The position numbers were made by a program, and so were the translations under genes. This document shows positions 282 through 23,726 of a stretch of 23,785 nt of DNA, piece by piece. The notes under the pieces were generated by a model. It was not told the origin of the DNA and made no database searches. It saw only the letters and a list, made by a program, of their open reading frames with translations. Each line of letters starts with the position of its first letter. Position 1 is the first letter of the stretch. The stretch lies in IMG/VR virus record IMGVR_UViG_3300033155_000058, positions 1 through 23,785 of that record. One strand, 5' to 3'. Source of the stretch: a virus.

Positions 282-286
282 TCAAT

Positions 287-2972: not shown

Positions 2973-2973
2973 T

Positions 2974-5055: not shown

Positions 5056-5072
5056 TTTAAAGGAAATTAATC

Positions 5073-5399: not shown

Positions 5400-5430
5400 C
5401 TATCAACCGACAATTCGTTAAGGAGATGTT

Positions 5431-5937: not shown

Positions 5938-5948
5938 AGGTAGAGATA

Positions 5949-6098
5949 ATGGCTATTAAGAAGAAAGCGAAAAAGAAAGACCCTAAAAAAGGTAAAGGCA
6001 TGGCTGAAAGAACAGCGATGACTATCGTAGAACGCCGTAAGAAGAATTGCCAAGCTTCTGGTATGAAGTGGAATGCAAAAACTATGAGATGTAGCTAA
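5949..6098 (+). CDS. small lysine-rich protein between the terminase genes
   Basis: This 49-residue open frame starts at ATG 5949, 11 bases after the small terminase stop and preceded by GAGGTAGAG. It stops 9 bases before the large terminase. Residues 3-16 are almost all lysine (MAIKKKAKKKDPKKGKG). The C-terminal half carries NCQASGMKWNAKTMRCS with two cysteines. Its clean ribosome site and tight packing between two real genes make it a likely gene. The strong positive charge suggests nucleic acid binding, perhaps in packaging, but this is inference. Confidence 0.65.
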   Translation: MAIKKKAKKKDPKKGKGMAERTAMTIVERRKKNCQASGMKWNAKTMRCS

Positions 6099-6107
6099 GG
6101 AGTTCTT

Positions 6108-7688
6108 ATGAGTGATTGGTTGACAAAGGCACAAGCTCGAATTGAGGGGATGCCTGAAGAAGCTATTCAAATTAGAGAAGCTGCTAAGAAAGATTTATTC
6201 TTCTTCGCAGAACTTGTCAACCCACTCAGGGTCTACGGAGACATCCATAAAGAAGTTTTTAAATGGCTGCAGTCCGATGACCAGGGTAACCAACTTCTCC
6301 TCCTCCCACGAGCACACATGAAGTCTCATGAGATAGCTGTATGGTGTGCTTGGTATATTACGAAACACCCTGAGACTACTATCCTCTATATGTCTGCTAC
6401 TGCGGAACTCGCAGAGAAGCAGCTTTATGATATAAAGAACATGCTCACGAATGACAACTACACTCGCTACTTCCCAGACATGGTTAATGTCGAAGATGGG
6501 AAGAGGGAGAAGTGGGCTGTATCTAAGATTGCAGTAGATCATCCAAGCCGTCGTGCTGAAGGTATTAGAGACTGGACGGTAGCAACCGCTGGCTTGACCA
6601 CCAACACGACAGGATGGCACGCTGATGTAATCATAGCGGATGACGTTGTTGTTCCAGACAACGCTTACACAGAGGACGGGAGGAAGAGGGTTGTTTCGGC
6701 AATGTCTCAGATGACCTCTATCAGAAATGCTGGTGGCTTCACGAAAGCCTGTGGTACAAGATACCACCCTGCAGATATCTACGAGACCTGGAAGGGTCAG
6801 ACAATGATGGTCTACAACGAGGAGACTCAAGAGGTTATAGATCAAGTTCTTATCTGGGATATAAAGGAACACTCCGTTGAGGTTGATGGTGTCTTTCTCT
6901 GGCCGAGAGAGATGAGAAAGGATGGAAAGTCCTTTGGTTTCAATATGAATGTTCTCTCAAGAATCCGTGGAGAGTACGAGGACACTACTCAGTACTTCGC
7001 ACAGTATTACAACAATCCTAACAGCCCAGGTTCTGAGAGGATAGAGAGAAATAAATTTCAATATTACGATAAGAGACACCTCCGACAAGAAGGCGGTAGC
7101 TGGTATTTCAAAGGGAGTAGGCTGAATGTCTATGCTTCCATTGACTTTGCCTTCAGCTTAAACAAGAAGGCTGACTTTACAGCTATCGTTGTTATTGGGG
7201 TTTCCTCTGATGGCGACATCTACATCTTGGACATAGAACGATTCAAGACGGACAGGTCTCAGGAGTACTTCAAGAAGATTGCCCTTCTACATTCCCAATG
7301 GGAGTTTAAGAAGCTCCGTGCGGAGGTCTCTGTGGCTCAACAGATTATCGTGAATGACATCAAGGACTACATCAAGAAAGAAGGCATGAGGCTTTCTGTA
7401 GACCCTTACCGTCCTAACAAGTCTGAGGGTTCTAAGGAAGAACGTATAGCAGCTACCCTAGAGCATCGTTATGAGAACCAAGCTATCTGGCATTACAAGG
7501 GTGGCTACACACAAGTCTTGGAGGAAGAGCTTATCCTAGCAAGACCTCCCCATGATGACTTGAAAGATGCTCTAGCTTCTGCAGTATCCATTTCAATTAA
7601 ACCCAAGCAGTCTCGACATACGAGAGACTTCGGAAACAGTAATGTTATCAAAACACATAAAAGATTCGGCGGCGTTTCTTTCCAATAG
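6108..7688 (+). CDS. terL: terminase large subunit (packaging ATPase and nuclease)
   Basis: This 526-residue protein drives DNA into the procapsid and cuts it. The ATPase domain (about 30-250) shows a degenerate Walker A at 67-74 (PRAHMKSH, keeping Arg68 and Lys72 but lacking the usual glycines). A Walker B VIIADD ends at Asp178-Asp179, and the coupling segment CGTRYHP lies near 215. The nuclease domain (about 335-500) has the RNase H-like acidic residues expected: Asp346 in ASIDFAFS, Glu406 in LRAEVS, and Asp483/Asp484 in PPHDDLKDA. Length is normal for T7-like podoviruses (about 550-590) or slightly short. ATG at 6108 follows AAGGAG. The family assignment is strong. Confidence 0.95.
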   Translation: MSDWLTKAQARIEGMPEEAIQIREAAKKDLFFFAELVNPLRVYGDIHKEVFKWLQSDDQGNQLLLLPRAHMKSHEIAVWCAWYITKHPETTILYMSATAELAEKQLYDIKNMLTNDNYTRYFPDMVNVEDGKREKWAVSKIAVDHPSRRAEGIRDWTVATAGLTTNTTGWHADVIIADDVVVPDNAYTEDGRKRVVSAMSQMTSIRNAGGFTKACGTRYHPADIYETWKGQTMMVYNEETQEVIDQVLIWDIKEHSVEVDGVFLWPREMRKDGKSFGFNMNVLSRIRGEYEDTTQYFAQYYNNPNSPGSERIERNKFQYYDKRHLRQEGGSWYFKGSRLNVYASIDFAFSLNKKADFTAIVVIGVSSDGDIYILDIERFKTDRSQEYFKKIALLHSQWEFKKLRAEVSVAQQIIVNDIKDYIKKEGMRLSVDPYRPNKSEGSKEERIAATLEHRYENQAIWHYKGGYTQVLEEELILARPPHDDLKDALASAVSISIKPKQSRHTRDFGNSNVIKTHKRFGGVSFQ

Positions 7689-7698
7689 GAGATAATAA

Positions 7699-9447
7699 GT
7701 GGCAGATCAAGTAGCAGAAATAAGTTCTTATATTGGACGAGAAGATCCTGCAGCATGGATTACAAATCAATGGGACACTTTCAATAACCAGAGATCTGGA
7801 AAGATGGCGGAGTGGGCAGAGTTAAGAGAATTTCTCTTTGCGACAGATACCTCCACAACTTCCGTAAACGATCTGGGTTGGAAGAATACGGTAACCATTC
7901 CGAAGCTAACACAGATAAGAGACAACTTACATTCTAACTATCTCTCTTCTCTGTTCCCAAATGACAAATGGTTGACTTGGGAAGCTTACAGCAAGGAGGG
8001 TGCTATTGCGGAGAAGCAGGAAGCTATCCAAGGTTACATGCGTAACAAGGTGAGAGAAGGTAATTTCAGGACAGTTGCATCCCAGCTCCTGACAGACTTC
8101 ATCGACTATGGTAACTGTTTTTCCACTATAGACTTCGAGAGGAAGTACAAGACTGGTAAGGATGGGGAGAAGATCCCTAGTTATATCGGCCCTGTAGCGA
8201 GACGCATTAGCCCTCTTGATATTGTATTCAACCCATTGGCTGCTTCCTTCAAAGACACCTTCAAGATCGTAAGATCTATCCACACCCTTGGTGCAGTGAA
8301 GAAGATGTCTATGGATCAACCAGAGAATGCAGAACTTGCAGCTTCTCTCTTAAAGAGATCTGATATTACCCAGAAAATGGGTGGATACAAGATGGAGGAT
8401 TTCGATAAGGCCGCAGGATTCTCAGTAGATGGTTTCGGGAATCTTCACGAGTATTACCAATCGAACTATGTTGAATTCCTCACCTTCTACGGAGACTACT
8501 ACGACAGTGTTACAGATACCCTTTACACCCAGAAAAAGATTACTATCGCAGACAGATCTTATGTGGTCTTCAATGACGATATTCCTTCGTGGCTTGGACA
8601 TGCTCCTATTTACCACAGTGGTTGGCGGGCTCGGCCTGATAACCTTTGGGCAATGGGGCCACTGGATAACCTTGTAGGTCTCCAGTATCGCTTAGATCAC
8701 CTAGAGAATCTTAAAGATGATGCGATGGATCTGCTGGTACACCCCCCTCTCAAGATCATTGGTGAGGTAGAAGAGTTCACGTATGGGCCAGGTGCTGAGA
8801 TTCATATTGATGAGAACGGTGACGTTCAAGAGCTGGGCAAAGGAGCTCAGGGTGTTGCTGTAGCTGAGAACTCTCAGCAGGTTATTGAGCAGCGCATGGA
8901 ACTCTATGCAGGGGCTCCAAGAGAGGCTATGGGTATCAGATCTCCAGGAGAGAAGACTCTCGGTGAGGTACAGCTCCTTGACAATGCTTCTAGTCGAATC
9001 TTCCAAGAGAAGATCACCTCTTTCGAGATTAACTGTGTAGAGCCAACCCTTAATGGAATGCTAGAGAGTGCTCGACGTAACATGGATGGTTCAGACACTA
9101 TCCGAGTTATGGATGACGATCTTGGTGTTGAGAAGTTCCTAGAGGTCTCTAAAGAAGACATTACAGCTACTGGAAAGCTCAGACCTATTGGTGCAAGACA
9201 CTTCGCTAAGAAGGCTCAAGACCTCCAGAACGTCCTTGGCATCTTTAATAGCGGTGCAGCCCCGACACTAGCCCCTCACATCTCTGGTGTGAATCTGGCT
9301 AAGTTCATCGAGGATGTCATTGGTATTGATAAGTATGAGATCTTCAAGCCGAATGTTGCTGTCTTTGAGCAGCAAGAGACTGCAAGACTTTCTAACCAAG
9401 CCCAAGAAGATTTAGAGATGGAGCAGAGTGAGGAGCCACCTTTATGA
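7699..9447 (+). CDS. portal (head-tail connector) protein
   Basis: This 582-residue protein starts with GTG and is preceded by AGGAGA six bases upstream. Portals form the dodecameric ring through which DNA is packaged and ejected. The segment around residues 404-425 (APREAMGIRSPGEKT, then EVQLL) is a phrase characteristic of podovirus portals. It lies directly downstream of terL and its length is close to T7 gp8 (536). The C-terminal tail is acidic (DLEMEQSEEPPL). The last four bases overlap the ATG of the next gene (ATGA), suggesting translational coupling. Confidence 0.9.
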   Translation: MADQVAEISSYIGREDPAAWITNQWDTFNNQRSGKMAEWAELREFLFATDTSTTSVNDLGWKNTVTIPKLTQIRDNLHSNYLSSLFPNDKWLTWEAYSKEGAIAEKQEAIQGYMRNKVREGNFRTVASQLLTDFIDYGNCFSTIDFERKYKTGKDGEKIPSYIGPVARRISPLDIVFNPLAASFKDTFKIVRSIHTLGAVKKMSMDQPENAELAASLLKRSDITQKMGGYKMEDFDKAAGFSVDGFGNLHEYYQSNYVEFLTFYGDYYDSVTDTLYTQKKITIADRSYVVFNDDIPSWLGHAPIYHSGWRARPDNLWAMGPLDNLVGLQYRLDHLENLKDDAMDLLVHPPLKIIGEVEEFTYGPGAEIHIDENGDVQELGKGAQGVAVAENSQQVIEQRMELYAGAPREAMGIRSPGEKTLGEVQLLDNASSRIFQEKITSFEINCVEPTLNGMLESARRNMDGSDTIRVMDDDLGVEKFLEVSKEDITATGKLRPIGARHFAKKAQDLQNVLGIFNSGAAPTLAPHISGVNLAKFIEDVIGIDKYEIFKPNVAVFEQQETARLSNQAQEDLEMEQSEEPPL

Positions 9448-9692
9448 AGACAGTATGGACACAAGGCCTAGAAGGAGACGCTAAACAAGATATCGTCTCC
9501 GCTTTCAAAGCTGGAACGCTGATAAGAGAGCGGCTCTCTAAGATGCTAGAGGCCAAGAGGTCTACCGCCATGAAGGCGAGGACTAATATAGACGATTATG
9601 AATCCCCCAGTTGGGCTTTTAAACAAGCAGACGTAGTGGGATATTCAAGAGCTATTCAAGAGATTATCAATCTTCTTGAAGATAAATCCTAG
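9444..9692 (+). CDS. small conserved-looking helical protein after portal
   Basis: This 82-residue protein overlaps the portal stop by 4 bases (ATGA). It reads as two amphipathic helices: residues 10-45 (VSAFKAGTLIRERLSKMLEA) and 63-80 (VGYSRAIQEIINLLED). I do not recognise a named family, although short helical proteins in this place occur in related phages. It is the last gene before the capsid promoter. A role in capsid assembly is a guess from position. Confidence 0.7.
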   Translation: MKTVWTQGLEGDAKQDIVSAFKAGTLIRERLSKMLEAKRSTAMKARTNIDDYESPSWAFKQADVVGYSRAIQEIINLLEDKS

Positions 9693-9694
9693 AG

Positions 9695-9763
9695 TTACTG
9701 GCACTTTTCCGATAACTCTGGTATATATACATATATAATATAAATACTTAGTATACTAGAAAT
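9695..9763 (+). repeat. promoter-containing element, copy B
   Basis: This is the second copy of the element at 131-200, with the same opening TTACTGGCACTTT, the same CTGGTATA block and the same closing AGTATACTAGAAAT. It fills a gap of 137 bases between the portal group and the scaffold gene. TACTAGAA occurs three times here and just after (9754-9761, 9763-9770, 9798-9805), compared with once in copy A. Confidence 0.8.
9698..9727 (+). promoter_or_regulatory. sigma-70-type extended -10 promoter ahead of capsid genes
   Basis: CTGGCA (9698-9703), an 18-base spacer and TATATA (9722-9727) with TGG just before it give the same geometry as the promoter at 134-163. The start would fall near 9734, leaving a leader of about 95 bases that contains the AGTATACT palindrome (9750-9757) and three TACTAGAA copies. 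The unit it would drive is scaffold, major capsid and decoration protein, ending at the terminator at 12084-12117. Confidence 0.6.
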
Positions 9764-9829
9764 ACTAGAAATAATATATTTTCTTCTATTACTAATATAC
9801 TAGAACTACTAATAATACAGGATAAATAC

Positions 9830-10606
9830 ATGACCGACCCGTCTAATGTGTTTCAAGATCCAGATAAAAAAGATATTACTCCAGGTACCCCAGACCCAGT
9901 GGTACCACCAAGCGTTCCCTCTGATAGTGTGTTCAAAGACCAATTAGCAGCTATCACCAATGAACGCGGTGAGCAGAAATACGACGATATCCCGAAAGCC
10001 CTAGAAGGCCTCCGCAACGCACAACAGCATATCCCGCAACTCCAGACTGAATTGGATGCGGCGAAAGTTGAGCTCTCAGCTCTACGCGAAGCGGCGGCAA
10101 GGCATGAGTCGGTTGAAGATGTCGTAGCTCGTCTTGCTGCATCGCAAGCTAACACCGATACCTCGGCTACAGGCTTGGATGAACAGAAAGCGTCTGCTTT
10201 GTTCGACCAGCTCCTGACTCAACGCGAGAGTGCTCAAGCATCTCAAACCAATCAGGAAACGGTTCAGAACGAGCTGGTTACTAAGTTCGGTAGCACCGAA
10301 GCAGCCAACAAAGCTGTTGTCGAGAAGGCTAAAGAACTAGGAACCTCAGCAGAAGAGCTTGGTAAATTGTCCGCACAAAATCCGAGGATGATACTAGAGC
10401 TCTTCAAATCTGTTTCGGGAACTCCTTCAGGAGCCCCTCCAACACCAAGCGTAAACACTGACGGTTTTCTGAGTAAGAAAGAAGAAGAGCATGGTTTAGT
10501 AAAACCCGAGAAGTCTCTCCTATCAGGTGCTACTTTTAAAGAGCAACTGGCTTATCTCCAGAAAGTCCGTGAAGATGTCTATAAAAAACATGGCGTTACT
10601 ACCTAA
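9830..10606 (+). CDS. capsid scaffolding protein
   Basis: This 258-residue protein lies directly before the major capsid gene, the usual place for a scaffold. The N-terminus (1-35) is rich in Pro and Asp and disordered. Residues of about 55-105 form a charged coiled coil (LRNAQQHIPQLQTELDAAKV, then ELSALREAAARHE). The middle is rich in Gln, Ala and Thr. The C-terminal helix (FKEQLAYLQKVREDVYKKHG) is basic and fits the capsid-binding helix of scaffolds. ATG 9830 has AGGA seven bases upstream. It would template procapsid assembly and then leave. Base composition is slightly more GC-rich than in the fibre genes. Scaffolds vary too much in sequence for a named family. Confidence 0.85.
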   Translation: MTDPSNVFQDPDKKDITPGTPDPVVPPSVPSDSVFKDQLAAITNERGEQKYDDIPKALEGLRNAQQHIPQLQTELDAAKVELSALREAAARHESVEDVVARLAASQANTDTSATGLDEQKASALFDQLLTQRESAQASQTNQETVQNELVTKFGSTEAANKAVVEKAKELGTSAEELGKLSAQNPRMILELFKSVSGTPSGAPPTPSVNTDGFLSKKEEEHGLVKPEKSLLSGATFKEQLAYLQKVREDVYKKHGVTT

Positions 10607-10616
10607 GGTATCATAA

Positions 10617-11567
10617 ATGCAACTAACTACTAATTCCCAAGCGTTCATCGAGGCGGAGCAGTATTCCTCTTTCATCCTCATGAACCTACACGATGGTCTC
10701 TTGCCAGAGTCCTTCGCTCGTGATGTATCTGACTTCGGTTCAGGTACTACTCTTAATATCAAAACCGTAGGTTCGGTTACTCTTCAGGAAGCGTCGGAAG
10801 ACACCCCCCTGATTTATAACCCTATCGAATCCGGTAATATTACCATGCAGATCAACAACTATGTTGGCGATGCTTGGTATGTATCTGATGACCTCCGAGA
10901 GGATGGTTCTCAAGTAGATCAACTCATGGTTCAGCGTTCTGTTGAGTCTACCCGCGCAATGCAGGAAGTGTTTGAATCTCGTTTCCTCACAGTCTGTAAT
11001 GATGCTCAGACCAATGCTAATGCTAACCTGATCAATGGCTTCGCCCATCGGGTATCCTCTGCAGTAACTACTACAGGTCATGAGAATACCTTTGAGCTGA
11101 GTGCTCTTATCGGTATGCGTCTTGCCTTCGATAAGGCTAACGTACCTGCAGAAGGTCGTGTCTTCATCTGTGACCCAGTTGTAGAAGCCACTATGAATGG
11201 TCTCGTTAACATCACCACCGATGTTACCCCATTCGCCGAGCGCATCCTTGAGCAAGGTATGGCACGAGGCCAGAAGTTCCTGATGAACCTGTATGGTTGG
11301 GACATCATGACTTCTAACCGTCTGGACACGGGTACCTTCAGTGATGGTACTACCGAAGTAACCGGCGCAGTAGCCAACATCTTCATGTGTATTCTGGATG
11401 ACCAGACCAAGCCTATCATGAAAGCTTGGAGACGACTACCTAAGGTAGAGGGTGAGCGCAATAAAGATCGTGCTCGTGACGAGTTTGTTGTCCGTAGTAA
11501 GTGGGGCTTTGGCCCGCAGCGCGTGGATACTCTCGGTATCTACATCACTTCTGCAACCAACTACTAA
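10617..11567 (+). CDS. major capsid protein
   Basis: This 316-residue protein starts 10 bases after the scaffold stop. Features typical of podovirus capsid proteins with the HK97 fold are visible: an early helix (FIEAEQYSSFILMNL), the segment VGDAWYVSDDLREDGSQVDQ that resembles the E-loop to spine region, AFDKANVPAEGRVFICDP in the A-domain region, and a C-terminus with WGFGPQRVDTLGIYITS. It assembles into the icosahedral shell with the scaffold. Position after the scaffold, length and these segments agree. The HK97 fold itself is inferred. Confidence 0.92.
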   Translation: MQLTTNSQAFIEAEQYSSFILMNLHDGLLPESFARDVSDFGSGTTLNIKTVGSVTLQEASEDTPLIYNPIESGNITMQINNYVGDAWYVSDDLREDGSQVDQLMVQRSVESTRAMQEVFESRFLTVCNDAQTNANANLINGFAHRVSSAVTTTGHENTFELSALIGMRLAFDKANVPAEGRVFICDPVVEATMNGLVNITTDVTPFAERILEQGMARGQKFLMNLYGWDIMTSNRLDTGTFSDGTTEVTGAVANIFMCILDDQTKPIMKAWRRLPKVEGERNKDRARDEFVVRSKWGFGPQRVDTLGIYITSATNY

Positions 11568-11578
11568 GGAGAATACAA

Positions 11579-12061
11579 ATGTCAGGTTTTGAAGATAGTG
11601 CTGGTCTTAATGTAAAGAACCAGTACGGCCCCCGAGACACTGGTCGCGCCACTGGCGTGATTGGTACCCAAGGTGTTAAGACTCAGCTCGCAATCGAGTT
11701 GACTGGCGCTCAAATTGATGACGGTATTTACATCGAGGATTTTGTTATCCCGCAGTATGCCATCATCACTGCTTGTTTCCTAGAGGTTACTGAAGCATTC
11801 GTCCTAGACGGTAATGCTGATAACACTCTTGAAGTGGGTACTAGCGGTTCGGAAGCTACTAACGGTTTCTCAATCACCTCCGCTCAATGTGAAGCACTTG
11901 GTGCTACCTCACTAACTGGTGCCCTCTCAGGTACTTGGGATGCTGAAGCAGATCTTGCAGCAGCTACCACTGTTAGTGTTGTAGTCGCAGGTACTACTCC
12001 TTCTGTCGATACCACTGTTGGTAAAGGTCGGATTGTAATTGAGTATGTTAAGGCCGCTTAG
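11579..12061 (+). CDS. capsid decoration-like protein
   Basis: I start this 160-residue protein at ATG 11579, which has AAGGAG in the gap after the capsid stop. A longer frame opening at 11501 would overlap the capsid gene by 67 bases with no ribosome site. The sequence begins MSGFEDSAGLNVKNQYGP and is beta-rich, with many Thr, Ala and Gly residues (SITSAQCEALGATSL, TVSVVVAGTTPSVD). It shares a transcript with the scaffold and capsid genes and is followed by a strong terminator, so equimolar production with capsid protein is plausible. A shell-stabilising or decoration role is inferred from position. Confidence 0.75.
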   Translation: MSGFEDSAGLNVKNQYGPRDTGRATGVIGTQGVKTQLAIELTGAQIDDGIYIEDFVIPQYAIITACFLEVTEAFVLDGNADNTLEVGTSGSEATNGFSITSAQCEALGATSLTGALSGTWDAEADLAAATTVSVVVAGTTPSVDTTVGKGRIVIEYVKAA

Positions 12062-12083
12062 TAGGTTCTAACAGCTAACTGAA

Positions 12084-12117
12084 GGCGGGACAGGAGAAAT
12101 CCTCTCCTGCCTTTTTT
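12084..12117 (+). terminator. intrinsic terminator after the capsid genes
   Basis: The stem is 12084-12095 (GGCGGGACAGGA) with 12100-12111, closed by a GAAA loop (12096-12099). It has 12 positions with one G-U pair (12087/12108) and one C-C mismatch (12091/12104). Six T residues follow at 12112-12117. It lies 23 bases after the decoration gene stop and 20 bases before the next start. This is the clearest terminator in the window and closes the unit begun at 9698. Confidence 0.88.
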
Positions 12118-12136
12118 ATTACCTAAAGGAAAGTAA

Positions 12137-12715
12137 ATGGCTATCGAACATGAAGATATTGATGACTCCAAGCTCCATGAGCCCAAAGGAGTCAAGAACG
12201 CTTTAGCAGGAACTATATACAGGGCAGACGGGGCGGGTGGTGGTGAATGGCAACATTCCAGTCTGAGTTGCCATGGACAGATGGAAATAGTTAACAATGC
12301 CACTGTTACTGCTGTTACTGCGGCAGTTGACGCTACCCTTAATACCGACACAGACTACTCGAAGATAGTTGCTGGATGGGGTAGTCCCCATGTCCACAAT
12401 ATAACCTTTGACACGGATAAGTTAACTGTCCTTATAGCGGGTCACTATGAACTCGCCTTTTGGTCAAGTTTTGAGGTACCCACCAATAACAACTTCGTTG
12501 GTATCAAGTTTAGTGTTAATGACTCTACCCCCTTTTCTCTACAGAAAATTGTAACTCAATCTGTAACCGCGAATGATTATAAGAATGTTTCTGGTCGCTC
12601 AGGTCTTGATTTGGGTGCTGGAGATACCCTCTCTGTTTATATGGCTGCAACCAAAACAGATAATATGGTTATAGAAGAAGCTGGTCTCTCTCTTATCCTA
12701 CTGCATGAGGCTTAA
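12137..12715 (+). CDS. head-fibre-like virion protein with jelly-roll head
   Basis: This 192-residue protein has ATG 12137 preceded by AAAGGAAAG. Residues 12-40 carry DDSKLHEPKG and YRADGAGGGEW, a phrase I associate with phage head-fibre and minor virion proteins. From about residue 90, GHYELAFWSSFEV, VGIKFSVND and GLDLGAGDTLSVYMA form a beta-sandwich similar to C1q/TNF-like heads. Position between the capsid group and the tail adaptor supports a head-surface protein or fibre. Alternatively it could be a short tail appendage. No promoter is visible in the 19 bases between the terminator and this gene, so it depends on readthrough or an unseen promoter. Confidence 0.72.
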   Translation: MAIEHEDIDDSKLHEPKGVKNALAGTIYRADGAGGGEWQHSSLSCHGQMEIVNNATVTAVTAAVDATLNTDTDYSKIVAGWGSPHVHNITFDTDKLTVLIAGHYELAFWSSFEVPTNNNFVGIKFSVNDSTPFSLQKIVTQSVTANDYKNVSGRSGLDLGAGDTLSVYMAATKTDNMVIEEAGLSLILLHEA

Positions 12716-12717
12716 TT

Positions 12718-13476
12718 ATGGCTAAGATGACTTTACTAGGAATCGTTCAAGACATTATGAACGACATGTCCTCTGACTTCGTTAATAGTATTGATGATAC
12801 AGAAGAATCACAGATGATTGCCCAGATAGTGAAGAGCACATACTTTGCTATGATGAGTAATCGGAACTGGCCCCACCTAAGCAGGGCTGTAGCTCTCACT
12901 GCCTATTCTGATAACGAACTTCCAACCCACATGAAGGTGGTGGAAGATATTAAAGAACTGCTGTTCCTTAACTACAATAAGGCTAAGGCCGGAGAGACAA
13001 GACTGAAGTATGGGAAGGTAGAGTGGAAAGATCCCGATGTGTTCCTCTACCGCATAAACCAAGAGAACAACGATGCTGATAATGTAGACGTTATCCAAGA
13101 TACCTCCGGTGTTCAGTTGTTAATCCGAAATGATACAGCCCCATCCTACTACACATCTTTCGACGACACAACCTTAATCTTTGACTCTTATGATTCGGAG
13201 ATAGATTCCTCACTTCAAGCAGGGAAGTTCCAAGCACAGGCCTATGTATTCCCTTCGTGGGCGCATGAGGACGAGGCAATTCCTGACCTCCCAGCAGAAG
13301 CTTTTATAGCGCTGCTTGAGGAAGCTAAGAGTAGGTCTTCTTTGAAGTTGAATAAAGAAGCAGACCAGAAGGCTGAACAAGAAGCTGGGAGACAGAACAG
13401 ATGGCTCTCTCGAAAGGCTTGGCAAATAAAGGGTGGTATTAAATACCAAAACTACGGAAGAACACCTAGGAAATAA
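12718..13476 (+). CDS. head-to-tail adaptor (T7 gp11-like tail tube A)
   Basis: This 252-residue protein starts 2 bases after the previous stop. The N-terminal part (LLGIVQDIMNDMSSDFVNSI, then DDTEESQMIAQIVKS and NRNWPHL) is a pattern seen in podovirus adaptor proteins that sit under the portal. The C-terminus is basic and helical (QKAEQEAGRQNRWLSRKAWQ). T7 gp11 is 196 residues, so this is somewhat longer. The gene order capsid, adaptor, nozzle matches T7. The protein would form the ring joining portal and nozzle. Confidence 0.82.
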   Translation: MAKMTLLGIVQDIMNDMSSDFVNSIDDTEESQMIAQIVKSTYFAMMSNRNWPHLSRAVALTAYSDNELPTHMKVVEDIKELLFLNYNKAKAGETRLKYGKVEWKDPDVFLYRINQENNDADNVDVIQDTSGVQLLIRNDTAPSYYTSFDDTTLIFDSYDSEIDSSLQAGKFQAQAYVFPSWAHEDEAIPDLPAEAFIALLEEAKSRSSLKLNKEADQKAEQEAGRQNRWLSRKAWQIKGGIKYQNYGRTPRK

Positions 13477-13478
13477 AT

Positions 13479-13676
13479 GTGACTTACGAATATAAAGGTT
13501 ATAAGATTACACCCTCTGACAGATACGCTTTGAAAGTAGTGAAGCCTATCGGTAAGGGTTCTGTACCAGCACCTCTAACAGGTCTCTACACTTCTTCTGG
13601 GGAGGCGGAAAGATCCATAGACATCTACCTTACAGAGAAGGAGAAACCTCGTGCCAAAACAAAACGTACCAGTTGA
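13479..13676 (+). CDS. small basic hypothetical protein
   Basis: This 65-residue protein starts with GTG at 13479. The ATG two bases earlier is followed by a stop, so it cannot be used. It begins MTYEYKGYKITPSDRYALKV and ends in a lysine-rich tail (EKEKPRAKTKRTS). Its last 26 bases overlap the start of the nozzle gene in another frame. The compact beta-like N-terminus resembles small single-domain phage proteins. I do not recognise a function. Being wedged between adaptor and nozzle suggests coupling to tail assembly. Confidence 0.65.
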   Translation: MTYEYKGYKITPSDRYALKVVKPIGKGSVPAPLTGLYTSSGEAERSIDIYLTEKEKPRAKTKRTS

Positions 13677-14532
13677 GCAAGTAACCTTCGCAGGGGGTCT
13701 CATCACAGAGGCTAACCCTCTTAACTTCCCCCCTAACGCTTCGTTAGACGAGGTTAACTTTGTAGCGGAGAAGGACGGAACCCGAAGAAGAAGACTCGGG
13801 ATGACTTATGAAACAGACCACACAGTAATCAACTCGACAGTAGTCCCCACAGCAGATAATAAAGTGGTGTTCTCCTCTTTTGTCTGGGAGAATGCTGGTG
13901 GGGATCCTGAGAGACAAGTCTCTGTTGTCCAGTCGGGTTCTGTGATCAAATTCTTTGACACCCTTACTACACCCCTCTCAGGAGCAGAACTCTACTCCTA
14001 TGATACGGGAACGACTCACAGCACATTCTTTTCTTTCGCTGTTGTAGATGGAACTCTTGTGGTAGCTGTCGGTCAAAAGGATATCTTACTTTTCCATTAT
14101 GACTCTGGTGTTATCTCTGAGACTACAGATATTCTCCGTACTAGGGATATGTTTGGTGTAGATGACAGCCTAGCTATCTCCCAGAGAGATGGAAGTCTTA
14201 CTGTGGAACACACCTACAATTTAAGAAACCAGTCCTTCAGTGTACCTCGTCTTCCTTTGACTGGGGATACCGTAGTAGATACTATAGGGGAGTTTGAAGG
14301 AGAGGCCTCTGTTTTTCCGAGTAATGCTGATGCTGTACACTATAATTTATATCCGAATGTTTCAGAATCTAATAGAACAGCGGACAGGTTTAATGTAAAA
14401 GACCTCACTGCTAATCCTCCAGGAACAACCCCAGCAGCTAGTGGACACTTCATCATAGATGCTTTAGAGAGAGGTGCTAGTCGGTTAGTGGAGTATGCCG
14501 ACCTTTTAAGTCAACACCCTGAGCTTAGCTAA
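13651..14532 (+). CDS. tail nozzle protein (T7 gp12-like), N-terminal part, ended by in-frame TAA
   Basis: GTG at 13651 has AAGGAG at 13638-13643. The 293 residues open with VEQVTFAGGLITEANPLNFP and NASLDEVNFV, the standard beginning of podovirus nozzle or tail-tube B proteins. The frame stops at TAA 14530-14532 after QHPELS. It then continues in the same frame, with no further stop, through PILTLPEDRTPEGASVLSEF into the next entry. Joined, the two parts make about 759 residues, close to T7 gp12 (794). The protein forms the distal tail tube and should be essential. The break is either a nonsense mutation, a sequence error or a readthrough site. Confidence 0.85.
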   Translation: MPKQNVPVEQVTFAGGLITEANPLNFPPNASLDEVNFVAEKDGTRRRRLGMTYETDHTVINSTVVPTADNKVVFSSFVWENAGGDPERQVSVVQSGSVIKFFDTLTTPLSGAELYSYDTGTTHSTFFSFAVVDGTLVVAVGQKDILLFHYDSGVISETTDILRTRDMFGVDDSLAISQRDGSLTVEHTYNLRNQSFSVPRLPLTGDTVVDTIGEFEGEASVFPSNADAVHYNLYPNVSESNRTADRFNVKDLTANPPGTTPAASGHFIIDALERGASRLVEYADLLSQHPELS

Positions 14533-14572
14533 CCTATACTCACCCTCCCAGAAGACAGGACTCCTGAGGGTG
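14530..14572 (+). promoter_or_regulatory. in-frame TAA followed by a 7-bp stem (possible recoding site)
   Basis: TAA (14530-14532, context AGC-TAA-CCT) interrupts an otherwise continuous nozzle frame. A perfect 7-bp stem, CACCCTC (14541-14547) with GAGGGTG (14566-14572) and an 18-base loop, starts 8 bases after the stop. Structures at this distance are known to stimulate readthrough in some viral genes. The stem lies in coding sequence and may be coincidental. TAA is the least leaky stop in bacteria, which argues against efficient readthrough. Confidence 0.35.
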
Positions 14573-14601
14573 CCTCTGTCCTCTCTGAGTTCGCTGGGAG
14601 A

Positions 14602-15930
14602 GTGTGGTTCGGAGGTTTCAGTGGAACTGTTATAGATGGGGATTCCCGTTCCCCCCTTCTTTCTTCCTACATCTTCTTCAGTCAACTTGTAGAAGAGCCT
14701 TCCGATATTACAAAGTGTTACCAAGATGGTGACCCTACTTCTAAAGAATTCCCTGACATCCTCGCTACTGATGGGGGCTACCTCAGAATCTCAGGTGCTT
14801 ACGGTATTGTTGGAATGAAGACCCTTAGTGATAGCCTTATCATTCTTGCAACAAACGGTATATGGCGGGTCACAGGTGGCGATGCTGGATTTGACGCAAC
14901 AGATTACATGGTATCTAAGATCTCTGATACAGGTTGCTCTTCCCCTAACTCCATTACGGAAACAGATCAAGGGGTTGTGTACTGGGGGGAGGACGGAATC
15001 TACTACATCCTTAAAAACGAGCTAGGTGATTTCATTGCCCAGAACTTAACTCAACAGTCTATCCAGACTAGGTATAACGACATCTCCTCTCTGGATAAGA
15101 AGTATGCTTCAGGATACTATGATGCGTATGACAGAAAGATTAGGTGGTTGTATGGGAACAGACTGGAGTCGACAACTTCCGTAGAGGAACTTGTCTTTGA
15201 CTTAAATCTAGGAGCTTTCCTTCCAAACTCCATTCCTAATATCTCGGGGAACAGACCTAAACCTATGTGCCTCTTAAAAGTTCCTCCTTTCAGTATTGGG
15301 GGGGTTTCTGATAAAGTACTAGCCAACGGTGTCGAGGTGGAAGCAAACGGAGTGCCTGTAGTTGTTTCTTCAGACACACTTCAAGATGGGGTTAGAGAGG
15401 TGGTGTATATCACCCTTTTAGAAGATAGTGTTTCCGATGAGCTGCAATACACAATGGCATTATATGGAGACACTTCTTTCCTTGATTGGGTAGATTTCGA
15501 TACCGTAGGTGTTGACGCTGCTGGGTATATGGTTACAGGAGCCTTGACGGGTGGAGACACACAACGAGAGAAGACGCTGAACTACCTAACTTTCCACATG
15601 GAGAGAACGGAGGATGGCTTCGAGGCTGATGTTAATGGAGACCTAACTCCTACTAACCAATCCTCTTGTCTTGTACAGTCTCAGTGGGAATGGACAAACT
15701 CTGCCAACTCAAACAGATGGAGCAGGGAGTTCCAAGCTTATCGTTACAGACGCTTGTATATGCCAACAGATGTAAATGACCCTTACGATACTGGTCACTC
15801 TATCATCACCACTAAGAATAAGATACGTGGTCGTGGAAGAGCCCTCTCTTTCTTAATGAAGACAGAGCCAGGAAAAGATTGTAGAATTCTTGGTTGGTCT
15901 ATGATTATAGGTGTGGAAGGAAATGTCTAA
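14602..15930 (+). CDS. tail nozzle protein (T7 gp12-like), C-terminal part
   Basis: This is the continuation of the same frame as 13651-14532. Coding sequence actually resumes at 14533. The listed start is the first GTG (14602), inside the conserved phrase FAGRVWFGGF, so it is unlikely to be a natural start. No ATG lies between the stop and this point. The 442 residues include GYLRISGAYGIVGMKTL, SLIILATNGIWRVTGGD, GVVYWGEDGIYYIL and SGYYDAYDRKIRWLYG, which are beta-propeller-like strands typical of nozzle proteins. The C-terminus is RILGWSMIIGVEGNV. It overlaps the start of the next gene by 8 bases. If no readthrough occurs, this part would be untranslated or made poorly. Confidence 0.82.
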   Translation: MWFGGFSGTVIDGDSRSPLLSSYIFFSQLVEEPSDITKCYQDGDPTSKEFPDILATDGGYLRISGAYGIVGMKTLSDSLIILATNGIWRVTGGDAGFDATDYMVSKISDTGCSSPNSITETDQGVVYWGEDGIYYILKNELGDFIAQNLTQQSIQTRYNDISSLDKKYASGYYDAYDRKIRWLYGNRLESTTSVEELVFDLNLGAFLPNSIPNISGNRPKPMCLLKVPPFSIGGVSDKVLANGVEVEANGVPVVVSSDTLQDGVREVVYITLLEDSVSDELQYTMALYGDTSFLDWVDFDTVGVDAAGYMVTGALTGGDTQREKTLNYLTFHMERTEDGFEADVNGDLTPTNQSSCLVQSQWEWTNSANSNRWSREFQAYRYRRLYMPTDVNDPYDTGHSIITTKNKIRGRGRALSFLMKTEPGKDCRILGWSMIIGVEGNV

Positions 15931-16387
15931 GATAACCTATCAGAAAGAAACTATAGTTTCCCTCCAAGAAGAGTTGGAGGATCTGATTGTAATACATCAT
16001 GAAGAACTTGGGATATATAACGATAAGATATCCCTGAATGTGATGTGGGAGAATTATTTTGCTCTCGAAGAGATGGGGAATCTCCACGTACTAACAGCAA
16101 GAGAAGAAGATAAATTGGTAGGATACTACATCTGTGGTGTTCAACCTAATCTCCATTATGCTGATGTTCTCTTTAGTGTCAATGATATTCTATTCATACA
16201 CCCTGATTATCGGAAAGGTTTTACCGGAATACGTCTTATCAAAGAGGCGGAGAAGGAGATGAGAAAACTAGGTGTGAAAGTGATGACCATCGGTTTTAAA
16301 ACCTACGCCCCTTTCGGGAGACTCCTAGAAAGGTTGGGTTGGGATTTTACAGAGAAAGTTTATACGAAATATATAGGAGAAGATTAA
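15923..16387 (+). CDS. GNAT-fold acetyltransferase-like protein in the T7 gp13 position
   Basis: I start at ATG 15923 (154 residues), directly after GGAAGGAA. A GTG four codons upstream (15911) is possible but adds only MWKE. The GNAT core is visible: strand EDKLVGYYICG (62-72), then DILFIHPDYRKGFTGIRLIK (88-107), with a shortened acetyl-CoA loop RKGFTG at 97-102. The final strand region is AYAP/FGRLLERLGWDF-like (TYAPFGRLLERLGW, 127-140). In T7 this position between nozzle and gp14 is held by gp13, a protein of similar size whose family I recall being linked to the acetyltransferase fold. It could be an active enzyme or a structural relic. The stop overlaps the next ATG by 1 base. Confidence 0.8.
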   Translation: MSKITYQKETIVSLQEELEDLIVIHHEELGIYNDKISLNVMWENYFALEEMGNLHVLTAREEDKLVGYYICGVQPNLHYADVLFSVNDILFIHPDYRKGFTGIRLIKEAEKEMRKLGVKVMTIGFKTYAPFGRLLERLGWDFTEKVYTKYIGED

Positions 16388-16842
16388 TGAGTATTTTCTA
16401 TGGGGCTGCCTCTCTGATTTTTAGTATAGGTTCTGCAGATCAATCGGCAAGAGCTGCTTCTAAGGCTTCTGAAGAACAGAAGATTGCTAATAAAAAGAGA
16501 GAGGCCACAGAGCAGACCCGCTCTAATGAAGCTAGAAGAAGCTCCCTCAGAAAAGAGAGGGTAAGACGGGCTCAGATATTGCAAAGAGCAGATACGATGG
16601 GTGTTGGTTCTAGTTCTGGGGTTGCTGGGGCTACTGGTGCCCTCAGTACAAGCACAGGTGCTGGTCTTGGTTTCCAAACAGGACAGACTACTGCTGCTTC
16701 TAGTATAAGTTCCACACTACAGAGTGCAGCAGATGCTCAAACATCTGCAGCTAACTTCGCTAATGTATCTTCAATCTTCATGAGTGAGTTCAAGACTGCT
16801 GGTGGTATGGAGAGTATCTTCGGTGACAAAAAGAAGGATTAA
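16387..16842 (+). CDS. internal virion protein, T7 gp14-like
   Basis: I start at ATG 16387, which overlaps the previous stop by 1 base (TAATG). An earlier in-frame codon at 16339 lies inside the acetyltransferase gene and is rejected. The 151 residues begin with a hydrophobic stretch (MSIFYGAASLIFSIGSADQS), followed by an Ala/Lys/Arg/Glu coiled coil (residues 20-65). A Gly/Ser/Ala/Thr-rich segment comes next (GVGSSSGVAGATGALST). This layout fits gp14-type ejection proteins, which form a pore in the outer membrane during infection. T7 gp14 is 196 residues. Assignment rests on composition and position. Confidence 0.75.
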   Translation: MSIFYGAASLIFSIGSADQSARAASKASEEQKIANKKREATEQTRSNEARRSSLRKERVRRAQILQRADTMGVGSSSGVAGATGALSTSTGAGLGFQTGQTTAASSISSTLQSAADAQTSAANFANVSSIFMSEFKTAGGMESIFGDKKKD

Positions 16843-16846
16843 ATAA

Positions 16847-19800
16847 ATGGCTGATGTAGATACAACTATAGAACTCACGGATGAGGAGATGTCAATCCCT
16901 GCTGGGTGGGAAGAAGAGGAAGATGATTCTTATGGTCAACCCACTGCTAATAAAAAGAGCTTGGCTGTTAGAAACTCTGTCACCCCTCACATTAATAACC
17001 CAGAAGTTCTCTTAGGGAAGCTTGAAGCAAGCGAGGAGAAGCATGCAGATGACATTATCACAGAGGATGCGGCTAGTCTTATAAGCAAAGTGCGCTCTCT
17101 CGATGCAGAAATTCTAGGAGATGTTGCTTCTCATCCAGAACTAATCTCTCAAGACGCTATCTTAGCTACTGCAGAGGCTGTTCAAGGGAGTCAACAGGAG
17201 ATGTTGACCAAGAGCCCTATCTATCTCTCCATTAAAAATAGTATTATGGAGACAGAAGGGAGTGAGAACCTCTCTCCAGCTCAGGTAGCGGATATTGCTG
17301 ACGATATGTTTGCACTCTACGGTGTAGCAGACAGCATGGATAAGAAATCTTGGTTCAGTATCGGTTATGATATTGTAGGGATGATGGTTATTACGGACTT
17401 GGCTTGGAATAATAGTGAAGTAGCTAAGAAAGTTAAAGAAGAATACCCAGATGCAGAGGTATCGGGTGCATACTTCGACTCATATCAGGATATGATCTAC
17501 TTAGCAAAGTATCGTAACAGTTTGAACTCGGAAGATAAACTACGGTTTACAGAAACCTTGAAGAAGTTTTATCTGGAAGTGGACGACAACGAACTTCAAG
17601 CAGTAGACTTCATAAACAATATCCTAGGTCAGAATGAATATCTGAAACTAGAAGATGCTTTGGATAAGGGTGGAGTTATTGCCACCGCCCTCCAGTTTGG
17701 ATTCGCTGCTGTAGGGAGGCTTGTAAGAGCCGGACAGCTTGTGAGAAGACTAGGGGCTATAGGTGATAAGCAAGGGGCTATGAAAGCCGCTGACGCAGCA
17801 GCAGAGAGCGCTGAGAATGCTAAGTTGCTTGGTACATCTCAGGTAGAATCCGCCACTGCTGGTAATCCTCTCTCTATCAGAGAAATATTCGCAGGGGCTC
17901 CTCCAGGTGCTTCTACTGAATATCGTAGGTTCGCCCAAGTTATTGATGAAAACCTAGACCAACTGAATAACGTAAGCACTATCAATATCTCTAGGATGAG
18001 TAAAGAAGAACAGGTTAGAATCGTTGCAGCCATGAAGAAGCATCTCCCTAAGGACTTGCAGGTAGATGATCTGAAGATTACTATGGTAGATGACCAGCCT
18101 GTATTCCATTACAACATTCTAGACAAGAATGGTAGGTTGATGGAGAAGGTGGAGAAGCCTTATACCTTAGACAACGTAGGTTCTTATATAGATCCTGATG
18201 TTGGTCTTGGTTCTAATATATTAAGAGGGCTCACCTCTCCTAAGTATGTACAAGGGTTGGATGCTAAGGGTCTTGTCGATCAGGCTATGGTAGGTACCTT
18301 CGCTCAGGCTAAGATGGGTGCTAATTATACCTCTGCTGCTGAAGCTGCCTTTAAACCTATCAAGAGAAATAAGAAGTCTATCCAAAAGGTAGACGACATG
18401 TTGCAACTACTTGATGGTAGAAAGATAGATCCTACTTACCAACAGCTTGTTGTAGAGGGTGTTGGAGGTAAGAGACTTACACCTAAAGAGTTCCAAGCTT
18501 TCACAGGTGTTCGTAAAGTTCTAGATGACATGCACTACCGCAACAACAAAGTAATGCGTCAGGAAATGGATTTAAGAGGGACACGCTTAATTAAAGAGGG
18601 TGATGAAAAGATCTTTGCCAAGCCTTATGATGATGCTGACTCTGCTAACGCTGCGTATCATGGCGATGAGGCAATGGGTACTATCTATAAAGATGGGCAA
18701 GCCTTCGATGATGTGTCTCACGCTACACTACAACAAGCCTACAAAGATGGGTATGTTCTTGTAAGGAGTCATGCTGATTCTTTTGATGATTGGTTTAAGC
18801 TTGGAGAGAAAGGGGATAGTAACTACTTTAGATTCGCTCTTGTTAAGAAGGATGCGGTGAGAGATCTTCCACCTGATGTTCTGAACAAGACCCCTAACTA
18901 TCTACCTAAGTTCAACAAGGATGCAAACTTCTTTATCAAAGAGGTTCGTAATGTAATAGTTAATGGTAAATCAGTACCTAAACCTATTACCCTCGCGTAT
19001 GCTGCTACAAAAGCTGAAGCTCTTAAATGGAAGAAACAACAAGAAGCTTTGGATGTAGAGCTGGGTACGAAGAGAACTCTTGTACAGACAGAGCAGAATA
19101 TGGATAAGACCTTAGACACAGGTGATGTTATACGAGCCAGTGGTGGTCTCATTCGAGGGAAGCGTTCTAAAGACGGCATTGAATATGCTGGTAACTTTGG
19201 AGGAGGTCGAGCTGACGCTTTTGAAGCTCTTCAGAGAGCCATCGCTATGACTGCAGACAGGGTTACTATGTCTCGGTGGCGTATGTCTGCTATGCAGGAG
19301 TGGAGAAACTCTGCTGCTCTTCACCTGAAGAAGCTCCCTGAGGAATGGAAACCTGCTAGAGAAGCTATTGCAGATATGGAAGTAGGGCCAGTCAGAACAA
19401 AACTTCTGTCTGCTCATGACCAAATCTCTGGTATGTCTCACATGCCTACGAAAGGAGAGCAAGCTTTCAAAGGGCACATCCTTACGGCAGCGAGAAAGCT
19501 AGATGGGATTAACCTCCCCTTCTTAGGGAAGACTATTGAGAAGGGTTCTAAAGCCCTCACTCAAAGAACTGCAGCCTACCTTTATAGAGTACGAGATAAC
19601 AGTCCTGTAAATCTGTTGAAGAGTGTAACCTTTAACATGACGCTAGGGGCTTTCAGTATGGTACAGATTCCTGTACAGACTGCTGGTGCTCTTGTAGCTA
19701 TCGCTGCAAATCCTATCCACGCAGGTAAGGCGATGGATACTTGGTTGATTGCATCTGCACTAGACCTTGGTACGGATATGAAGGTTGTAGGAAAGACTGG

Positions 19801-21235
19801 TAATATCTTAGGTAAGAGGATGGGGCTAGATAAGAATAAACTCAACGCATTACAGAATGATTACGAGTTCTGGAGAGCCTCTGGTATGAGAGAAGCTGTT
19901 GTTCGGGGGAACGCTGATGCGTCCTCTGTAATGAACGGCCTCCCTTTAGATGCTAACCTCATGCGTAGAGGGTTCGGTCATCTCTTACAAGCTGGTCAGA
20001 CTCCTTACCGTATGGGTGAGTTGGCTAACATGCGTATCAGTTTCTTCACTGCCTTAGAGCGTGAGAAGGCTTTGGTAGGGAAAGGTTTTAAGTATGATGA
20101 TGCAACTCTTCAGAGAGTATTGTCTCGTACTGAGAGCACCCGCTTGAACATGAACGCTGCTAACAAAGCTATGTTCCAGAAGGGATTCTTATCTCTGCCT
20201 ACCCAGTTCAAGCAAATTTATACCAAGTACCTAGAAGCTGTAGCAGGAAGAGAGTTTACAAGAACAGAAAAGTTCCGCATCTTCTCTTCTCAGACAATGG
20301 CTTTCGGTGCTGCAGGTGTACCTATCTTGAATCACTACGCTGACTCTATTATGGAGATGGCAGGGGTAACCAAAAACTCTGACTCAACAGAGCAACAAAT
20401 GTGGTTAAGAGGAACTGTTGGTGTCATGCTTAACGACTACTACGGTATTGATGCTGTGTTCTCTGGAAGAATGACTGTATCCGCGGATATCATCGAAGAT
20501 ATTAAGAAGATGTTTACAGACGGAAGAACACCTGTATTTGAAACATTCGCAGGGGCTTCTTCTTCTCCTTTGAAACATGGACTAGGTTTTATGGAGAATA
20601 TCTTCATGGCAGGTAACATGGTCTATCAGATTGAAGACTACAACCCTGCACAGTTAGGGTATATCGCTGAGATTGTTCTTGAGGGTTTGGCACGGATGTC
20701 TTCCTCAGGGAGAAGCGCTATAGCTGCTAGAGATCTCCTTTACGATGGCGTGGTTAGAAACTCAGATGGTGTCGAGATCTATAAGACAGATCCTGACCTA
20801 GCTGACATTCTCTTTAGAGCTATAGGTTTTGGTAGCCAAGAGACACACGACCTCTACGCACAATCCAAATCTAATATGAGTATAGAAGAGGAGCGGAGAG
20901 GAAGAGTCGACCAGTATGTATCTGCCTTCCACACTTTGATTAATAACATGAAACAAGAGAACAAGGAGATGGTACACTTATCACATGTGGCTCTCTCCAT
21001 GATTAAAATCCAGATTGAGAGATACCCTGATGATGAAAGGGATAGGATCTGGGCTTCTTTTCTTGACAAGGTTAATAGTCCAAGAGACATGAAGGGGGAC
21101 GTTATTAATAAAGCCCTCAAGACATGGTACGAAGATTCAGCAAATGCCTTTAACACTCTCAACCCAACTGTAACAAAAGCACGGGAAGAGAAAGAAGCTA
21201 GAGGCCAAGCAATTTTAGATATGGAGAATGAATAA
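16847..21235 (+). CDS. very large internal virion (ejection) protein
   Basis: This 1462-residue protein is the largest in the window and follows the gp14-like gene. It is acidic at the N-terminus (residues 8-30) and mostly helical, with hydrophobic stretches at about 275-305 (VIATALQFGFAAVGRLVR) and 920-955 (LGAFSMVQIPVQTAGALVAI). These are suitable for membrane insertion during DNA ejection. Size and position match the T7 gp16 class (1318 residues). I do not see the N-terminal lytic transglycosylase motif of T7 gp16, nor any polymerase motif of the N4 virion RNA polymerase. It probably forms the channel across the inner membrane with its partner. Its stop overlaps the next ATG by 1 base. Confidence 0.82.
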   Translation: MADVDTTIELTDEEMSIPAGWEEEEDDSYGQPTANKKSLAVRNSVTPHINNPEVLLGKLEASEEKHADDIITEDAASLISKVRSLDAEILGDVASHPELISQDAILATAEAVQGSQQEMLTKSPIYLSIKNSIMETEGSENLSPAQVADIADDMFALYGVADSMDKKSWFSIGYDIVGMMVITDLAWNNSEVAKKVKEEYPDAEVSGAYFDSYQDMIYLAKYRNSLNSEDKLRFTETLKKFYLEVDDNELQAVDFINNILGQNEYLKLEDALDKGGVIATALQFGFAAVGRLVRAGQLVRRLGAIGDKQGAMKAADAAAESAENAKLLGTSQVESATAGNPLSIREIFAGAPPGASTEYRRFAQVIDENLDQLNNVSTINISRMSKEEQVRIVAAMKKHLPKDLQVDDLKITMVDDQPVFHYNILDKNGRLMEKVEKPYTLDNVGSYIDPDVGLGSNILRGLTSPKYVQGLDAKGLVDQAMVGTFAQAKMGANYTSAAEAAFKPIKRNKKSIQKVDDMLQLLDGRKIDPTYQQLVVEGVGGKRLTPKEFQAFTGVRKVLDDMHYRNNKVMRQEMDLRGTRLIKEGDEKIFAKPYDDADSANAAYHGDEAMGTIYKDGQAFDDVSHATLQQAYKDGYVLVRSHADSFDDWFKLGEKGDSNYFRFALVKKDAVRDLPPDVLNKTPNYLPKFNKDANFFIKEVRNVIVNGKSVPKPITLAYAATKAEALKWKKQQEALDVELGTKRTLVQTEQNMDKTLDTGDVIRASGGLIRGKRSKDGIEYAGNFGGGRADAFEALQRAIAMTADRVTMSRWRMSAMQEWRNSAALHLKKLPEEWKPAREAIADMEVGPVRTKLLSAHDQISGMSHMPTKGEQAFKGHILTAARKLDGINLPFLGKTIEKGSKALTQRTAAYLYRVRDNSPVNLLKSVTFNMTLGAFSMVQIPVQTAGALVAIAANPIHAGKAMDTWLIASALDLGTDMKVVGKTGNILGKRMGLDKNKLNALQNDYEFWRASGMREAVVRGNADASSVMNGLPLDANLMRRGFGHLLQAGQTPYRMGELANMRISFFTALEREKALVGKGFKYDDATLQRVLSRTESTRLNMNAANKAMFQKGFLSLPTQFKQIYTKYLEAVAGREFTRTEKFRIFSSQTMAFGAAGVPILNHYADSIMEMAGVTKNSDSTEQQMWLRGTVGVMLNDYYGIDAVFSGRMTVSADIIEDIKKMFTDGRTPVFETFAGASSSPLKHGLGFMENIFMAGNMVYQIEDYNPAQLGYIAEIVLEGLARMSSSGRSAIAARDLLYDGVVRNSDGVEIYKTDPDLADILFRAIGFGSQETHDLYAQSKSNMSIEEERRGRVDQYVSAFHTLINNMKQENKEMVHLSHVALSMIKIQIERYPDDERDRIWASFLDKVNSPRDMKGDVINKALKTWYEDSANAFNTLNPTVTKAREEKEARGQAILDMENE

Positions 21236-23337
21236 TGGCAGGTATATTCGATACCTCAAACGTGTCTCAGACAACGGAATCTTCCGCCACTGTCAAGGCA
21301 CCAGTAGCTGAGGCTGAAAACACAATGGGGACTATGGCTCTCCAGCTAGGACTAGATGCTGGTAAGGAGGTTGTTACTCAACATGCTTTAGGAGAGCAAG
21401 AGGAAGCCCTTGCAGGTATCCAAGAGGACAGGAACGCTGCTCTTGGAGAGATGCGGCTTAAAGCTCTGAACAGTAAGTTCGAGACATTAGCAGCGGGTAT
21501 TGAGCAGGGACTGCCTACTTCCCAAGCTAATGCTAGAGCAAGAGCTGTCTTAGCTGAGACTAAAGCATCTGTCCCTTGGATTGGTAATAGAGCGGATGCA
21601 GCCTTCAAAGGTTTCTTTGGAGGGTCTTCTGGAGCTGGTGGCTTCGAGCCTAATCCTTTGGAGATAGCTGCAAGAGAGCATCAAGAGCTTGTCGCTAAGA
21701 CTGCTGCTATGGCAGGTTCCTCTCTTATAGCGGCTGAGAGAGCTGTTAAAGTAGATGCTATGAATAAGCAGGGTACTGCAAACCTACTTGCCGCTAGTAA
21801 TGATAAGGCAAACTTCAAGGATTCTGCGAGAGCTTACACTAACATGCGGATGGATAATGCAAGTGTTCAGGCTCAGTACATTATGAATAGCTATCTCCCA
21901 GAAGGGACTACCACCCTTGGGGTTAATGAAATGGCTTCTGTAAAGTCCGCGGTAAAGCTTGTTTACTCACAGGCTAGGGAGGATCTCCGAAAGGTTTCCT
22001 TTAGAGCTGCAGATGGGATGCCCCTTCTTAGTAAGGATGATTTGCAAGAACAGTATGATGCTATTACTGCTGCGGAGGAAAATCAACTTTCTCTCATCGG
22101 TGACCGTGACTATCAGACGATTATAAAAAATCTAGCTGATGTTAAACAGGATGAGATATCATATGTTGCCAACACAATGTTCTCTGAGTGGGCTCTCGCT
22201 AACGCAGCGGGTGGACAGGTTGCTGTAGAGAGCCTTAACAAAGGTATTATGAGTCCTAAGTATGTAGCTTCTCTTGTAGCGGATCAACCTCTCCTTGCTA
22301 AGTTCTTCAATCCAGATGGTACCTCTAAAAGAGTATTAGCTTCTAGCATCGCAAGAATGTATGGGAACGGTTTGACAGATCCTACTACCAATGCAAAGCT
22401 TTCTGCTATGGTATTGACACCAGAAGGTATTGAGCTTATGCAGAAGATGGTACAAGATCATGAGCAAGTAGGTACCGCTAGGACTGGGTATGACCAACTT
22501 TCTAAAGGAACTCCAGAGCAGCAGCAGGTAGCTAAAGTCTATCACGGAGAAAGTTCAAAGCTCAATCCTAAAGCTGTTTCCAAGACTCTTTCTACGAAGA
22601 ACTTCACAGAGTGTCTCCAAGAGAATGTACCGGAGGGCTCGAAGGTTCTCTCGGTGTCTCTTGGTGGTATGAGTCAAGCATTTAAAACTGCTTACTATTC
22701 AGCGGGGGTTGGCGTTCCTGGTTATATTGAGATAGGTTCCGAAAGTGATTTAGATGGTAACATAAAAGCCTCCTCTTTCACAGCCACAGAGGAGAACGGT
22801 GAACCTATTCCTGACCATGCAAAAGGAGCTATCGCTGCTCAGTACAGAGCCATCCTCAGTAATCCAGCTTATGTGCAGCATGTGGAAGAGGTCATGGGTA
22901 TTCCCCTGACAGCATCAGAGGTGTTAGAACTAACTTTGAATGATACCCTTCACCCTAAGTTCTTTGAGAGAGCACAAGAGCAGAAGGAGAAAGGTTCTTT
23001 CTTAGGAGCTCCAGGAAGGAAGGACTTAGCTGCATATAATAAAAGCCTTGCATCATTACATCTCCAACAGAAAGGTACTTGGACACCCTTCGAGAGGGAG
23101 ACTCCCGAAGAGATAATGGGGAAGAAGCCTGAAGGAAAGATGGTAGACCCTGCTCAAAGCCAGATAGACGAGCTCTTTAAAGAGAAGCCCAAAGAGAAGC
23201 CCAAGGAAGAGTTCCAGCTTACGCAAGAGCAACATGATGCTATAGCAGCAGAGCCTGACCTTCAGAAGAAGAAGAAACTTGCAATAGGTTTCGGAGCAGA
23301 TCCTGAAATGATTAACAAAGCAACAAGGGGTAGATAA
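21235..23337 (+). CDS. large internal virion protein, T7 gp15-like by position
   Basis: This 700-residue protein overlaps the previous stop by 1 base. It is almost wholly helical, with Ala/Glu/Lys-rich coiled coils at about 40-130 and 145-200, and a Gly-rich turn around 125 (FGGSSGAGGF). The C-terminus has a short Lys/Pro/Glu repeat (EKPKEKPKEEF, about 660), then a small helical end domain (LTQEQHDAIAAEPDLQ, KKKKLAIGFG). Its size is close to T7 gp15 (747). In T7 gp15 precedes gp16, whereas here the larger protein comes first. It would sit in the core below the portal and be ejected with the DNA. Family assignment is by context. Confidence 0.78.
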   Translation: MAGIFDTSNVSQTTESSATVKAPVAEAENTMGTMALQLGLDAGKEVVTQHALGEQEEALAGIQEDRNAALGEMRLKALNSKFETLAAGIEQGLPTSQANARARAVLAETKASVPWIGNRADAAFKGFFGGSSGAGGFEPNPLEIAAREHQELVAKTAAMAGSSLIAAERAVKVDAMNKQGTANLLAASNDKANFKDSARAYTNMRMDNASVQAQYIMNSYLPEGTTTLGVNEMASVKSAVKLVYSQAREDLRKVSFRAADGMPLLSKDDLQEQYDAITAAEENQLSLIGDRDYQTIIKNLADVKQDEISYVANTMFSEWALANAAGGQVAVESLNKGIMSPKYVASLVADQPLLAKFFNPDGTSKRVLASSIARMYGNGLTDPTTNAKLSAMVLTPEGIELMQKMVQDHEQVGTARTGYDQLSKGTPEQQQVAKVYHGESSKLNPKAVSKTLSTKNFTECLQENVPEGSKVLSVSLGGMSQAFKTAYYSAGVGVPGYIEIGSESDLDGNIKASSFTATEENGEPIPDHAKGAIAAQYRAILSNPAYVQHVEEVMGIPLTASEVLELTLNDTLHPKFFERAQEQKEKGSFLGAPGRKDLAAYNKSLASLHLQQKGTWTPFERETPEEIMGKKPEGKMVDPAQSQIDELFKEKPKEKPKEEFQLTQEQHDAIAAEPDLQKKKKLAIGFGADPEMINKATRGR

Positions 23338-23723: not shown

Positions 23724-23726
23724 GGG

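Follow-up and report, generated by a model that had tools for sequence, protein, structure and literature searches.

The window analyzed here, which is the whole 23,785-nucleotide stretch of the IMG/VR virus record IMGVR_UViG_3300033155_000058, contains a tail nozzle gene that is interrupted by a TAA codon (Table 1). An ORF reading of the window gave exactly one internal stop in this frame, in agreement with the preliminary description of the locus, and the gene product would comprise ~759 residues if codon 294 were a sense codon. When compared with the 769-position profile of the "tail appendage" family PHROG 8094, the part upstream of the TAA matched positions 1–303 (E = 7e-76) and the part downstream matched positions 310–769 (E = 4e-168), so that both parts together represent the family at full length. 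Since both parts match one and the same family, they constitute one gene that is interrupted, and the earlier reading of nozzle sequence on either side of the stop holds. The gene is flanked by a tail protein gene upstream and an internal virion protein gene downstream, as in named relatives. Judged from these profile matches, it encodes a Zobellviridae-type tail nozzle ("tubular tail B") protein of a podovirus. A gene for a GNAT-type acetyltransferase (window 15911–16387) is located in the virion module directly 3′ of the nozzle gene; an acetyltransferase in the virion module is likewise annotated in ICP2 and in two oyster-associated phages.

The PHROG 8094 proteins of the Zobellviridae Pseudomonas phage PA11 (gp038), Pseudomonas phage GP100, Citrobacter phage CVT22 (gp11), and Klebsiella phage Klyazma (orf012) share 44–48% protein identity with the window nozzle, and this homology is full-length, extending over both sides of the stop. 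These phages and the window also share a common gene order, which consists of the tail adaptor, a small overlapping ORF, the nozzle, small proteins, and a large internal virion protein. The tail nozzle gp12 of phage T7 resembles the window gene in its position within the virion module and in its approximate length. The PHROG 8094 family profile had no sequence match in the PDB at E ≤ 0.01, and T7 gp12 is compared here by that general likeness only.

Table 1 Features of the nozzle locus in the window and split nozzle genes in IMG/VR relatives.
Sequence	Feature	Position	Strand	Remarks
Window	Tail nozzle / tail appendage (tubular tail B) gene	13651..15930	+	GTG start; PHROG 8094 on both sides of the stop
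Window	In-frame TAA, codon 294	14530..14532	+	Only in IMGVR_UViG_3300033155_000058; TAC (Tyr) in the sister contig
Window	Synonymous difference, AGC (window) / AGT (sister)	14529..14529	+	3 bases before the nonsense difference
Window	Perfect 7-bp inverted repeat CACCCTC/GAGGGTG	14541..14572 (arms 14541–14547/14566–14572)	+	Incidental coding sequence
L049	Split nozzle gene	3001–5325		Split at residue 65; TAA, then GGAGG and ATG
L086	Split nozzle gene	3001–5423		Split near residue 175; ribosome-site-like sequence and ATG just past or overlapping the stop
L097	Split nozzle gene	3001–5419		Split near residue 175; ribosome-site-like sequence and ATG just past or overlapping the stop
L144	Split nozzle gene	2494–4875		Split near residues 594–605
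L161	Split nozzle gene	2476–6289		Split near residues 594–605; perhaps three ORFs
L179 and L180	Split nozzle genes	2485–4829		Split near residues 535–548
L069	Split nozzle gene	3001–6221		~1-kb interruption past the N-terminal segment; no restart ATG identified

A near-identical sister contig

A search of IMG/VR with the downstream part of the nozzle retrieved one contig nearly identical to the window, IMGVR_UViG_3300033148_000846 (47,975 bp; referred to as the sister), whereas no close DNA relatives of the window were found among the named phages. The sister differs from the window by seven substitutions over 23,667 bp (99.97% identity) and aligns without gaps, with six of the substitutions located in window positions 7233–23785 and one in positions 1–7114. 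Two of the seven lie at the nozzle site, at 14529 and 14532, where the codons are CTT AGC TAA CCT in the window and CTT AGT TAC CCT in the sister (Ser-Tyr for AGT TAC). Consequently to this reading, the nozzle of the sister is a single uninterrupted frame of 759 amino acids, which bears out the joined length of about 759 residues proposed before. The codons listed earlier as lying one base away from TAA (TTA, CAA, AAA, and GAA) are valid neighbors, but this list omitted TAC and TAT, the former being the codon of the sister. A DNA pattern in which positions 14529 and 14532 were left free matched only the sister in viral_contigs, a result from which records very near the window were possibly omitted. 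The 118 bases at window positions 7115–7232 join both ends of the sister contig, and this bridge indicates a genome of ~48.1 kb that is circularly permuted or was assembled as a circle.

Codon 294 in homologous nozzle genes

In all 17 named or deposited phage genomes examined, nearly all of which are classified as Zobellviridae, the nozzle is encoded by one uninterrupted ORF of 734–889 residues in a similar gene order. Alignment of the joined frame with these homologous nozzles, a check that had been proposed in the preliminary description, placed Tyr, Phe, Ile, Ala, Glu, Ser, or a gap in the column of codon 294, and never a stop. Two profile scans of IMG/VR added 111 distinct contigs, including the sister. 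Among the 127 loci from IMG/VR contigs and named phages that cover residue 294, which are partly non-independent as a few of the contigs duplicate named phages, none had a stop at this residue, and the most common amino acid was Tyr (39 loci). A stop codon conserved together with its context, as would be expected for readthrough, was thus found in 0 of 127 loci. The preliminary description had also asked whether relatives keep the TAA. None does: the sister and all homologues covering the site have a sense codon, which is the very outcome that it had named as speaking against its proposal. The stop at codon 294 is therefore confined to the window copy.

Split nozzle genes in metagenome relatives

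The nozzle gene was split in eight of the 111 IMG/VR contigs, in each case at sites other than residue 294 (Table 1). In seven of these eight, an ATG follows within a few to ~25 bases of the stop or overlaps it, often with a ribosome site, and several of L144, L161, L179, and L180 show a stop/start overlap. In L069, the N-terminal nozzle segment (~60 codons) forms a separate short ORF, and the rest of the nozzle follows only after an inserted ORF that itself begins with a sequence similar to this segment. Apart from L069, these splits look like genuine gene fissions, some of which could be assembly faults. Hence, on the strength of these contig sequences, the podovirus nozzle gene appears to have undergone repeated natural fission at several sites. 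In a further contig (L185:2239–5769), nozzle residues 623 and 630 are separated by an insertion of ~1.2 kb that apparently leaves the frame open, which suggests an inserted domain.

Readthrough, fission, and codon reassignment

Programmed or tolerated readthrough of the TAA, aided by the downstream stem or by a suppressor tRNA, would yield the full nozzle, and it could draw on the open and conserved frame past the TAA and on the perfect 7-bp stem beginning eight bases downstream, which we found exactly as previously described. However, the sister has the same stem, identical in sequence, next to a sense codon, and thus stem and stop are not linked. All seven pairs of the stem (G-U pairs allowed) were kept at the homologous codons in only four of 91 relatives, the sister among them, and RNA folding of positions 14500–14620 (121 nt) was no better than that of shuffled sequences (z = −0.40), so that no conserved downstream structure of the kind expected for readthrough was found. 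Perfect 7-bp stems with loops of 3–30 nt occur 51 times in the window, and ~2.5% of all window positions have such a stem beginning within 12 nt downstream. No Rfam element was detected at the stop, the single Rfam match being a tRNA in another part of the window. Thr(tgt) and Arg(tct) were the sole tRNAs detected in the window and in the genome of the sister, and neither a suppressor nor a TAA-decoding tRNA was among them. On the basis of the sister without a stop, the conservation in 4 of 91 relatives, the folding score, and the 51 stems of the window, a role of the stem as a recoding element is rejected, and the stem is incidental coding sequence. The allele of the sister by itself goes far to refute readthrough, no homologue has a stop at the site, and we consider readthrough very unlikely. 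Titles and abstracts of the literature contained nothing directly relevant on readthrough in phage tail genes or on split nozzle genes, and the terms "nozzle" and "stop codon" were both absent from the full text of PMC10386132. Reassignment of TAA to an amino acid by the phage would have nothing in its favor beyond the open frame. TAA terminates 13 of the 20 listed genes and is therefore not reassigned; the nozzle gene contains only one internal TAA, and a tRNA decoding it was not found. We regard this explanation as exceedingly improbable.

The interruption could also reflect a real gene fission, with two separate polypeptides assembling into the nozzle. The eight split genes among the 111 metagenome relatives suggest that the protein tolerates fission at other sites, yet the naturally split nozzles other than L069 have a fresh start at the stop, whereas the stop of the window has none. 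Past the TAA, the first in-frame start is a GTG at 14602, whose Shine-Dalgarno spacing is not usable, and no ATG occurs before 14815, in line with the earlier statement that neither an ATG nor a ribosome site is present for a new start. A restart after the TAA was rejected on these grounds. As the nozzle of the sister is also unsplit, we consider fission highly improbable. Of the options offered in the preliminary description, readthrough and two assembling polypeptides are both unsupported given the sense codon in the sister and in every homologue covering the site, and the third, a nonsense change or error, proved to be right, with TAC in the sister and no relative having a stop at this position.

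Origin of the TAA allele

The sister contig carries a sense allele, and the stop is absent from every relative that covers the site. We therefore interpret the locus, with a probability of roughly 95%, as an ordinary nozzle gene in which codon 294 reads TAA instead of a Tyr codon only in this contig. The TAA would then have arisen either as an assembly or consensus error in the metagenome contig or as a nonsense mutation in a sampled genome that is defective or in the minority, and the working phage would produce one nozzle polypeptide of ~759 residues. The TAA allele itself is presumably non-functional.

The distribution of the differences between window and sister bears on these two origins. 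Among the seven differences, two pairs are tightly spaced (3 and 6 bp), an arrangement that random placement would produce with a probability of ~3 in 100,000. Such pairs suggest that haplotypes of different strains were mixed locally or that the assembly or consensus is at fault, and the clustering fits a local fault of this kind. The second pair, at window positions 18760 and 18766, consists of two synonymous differences in the gene of the large internal virion protein. On the other hand, six of the seven differences fall on third codon positions, as in true strain variation, and the TAA could thus be a real mutation. The window allele forms a perfect 8-bp palindrome, TTAGCTAA; as a hint of a template-switch or library artefact it was given no weight, the pair at 18760/18766 showing no comparable pattern. 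A real TAA allele that segregates in the population, and whose carriers are sustained by intact genomes co-infecting the cell or by a suppressor tRNA of the host, is very unlikely.

The anomaly of the split gene was read correctly; it belongs to one record and does not signal recoding. When a virion gene is strikingly split in only one metagenome contig, the cause can be a private change or a fault of the assembly, and such a case is settled by a sister contig of near-identical sequence. Sites at which this protein tolerates a cut and still assembles are better sought in the metagenome relatives, whose nozzle genes are split at several sites with proper restarts.
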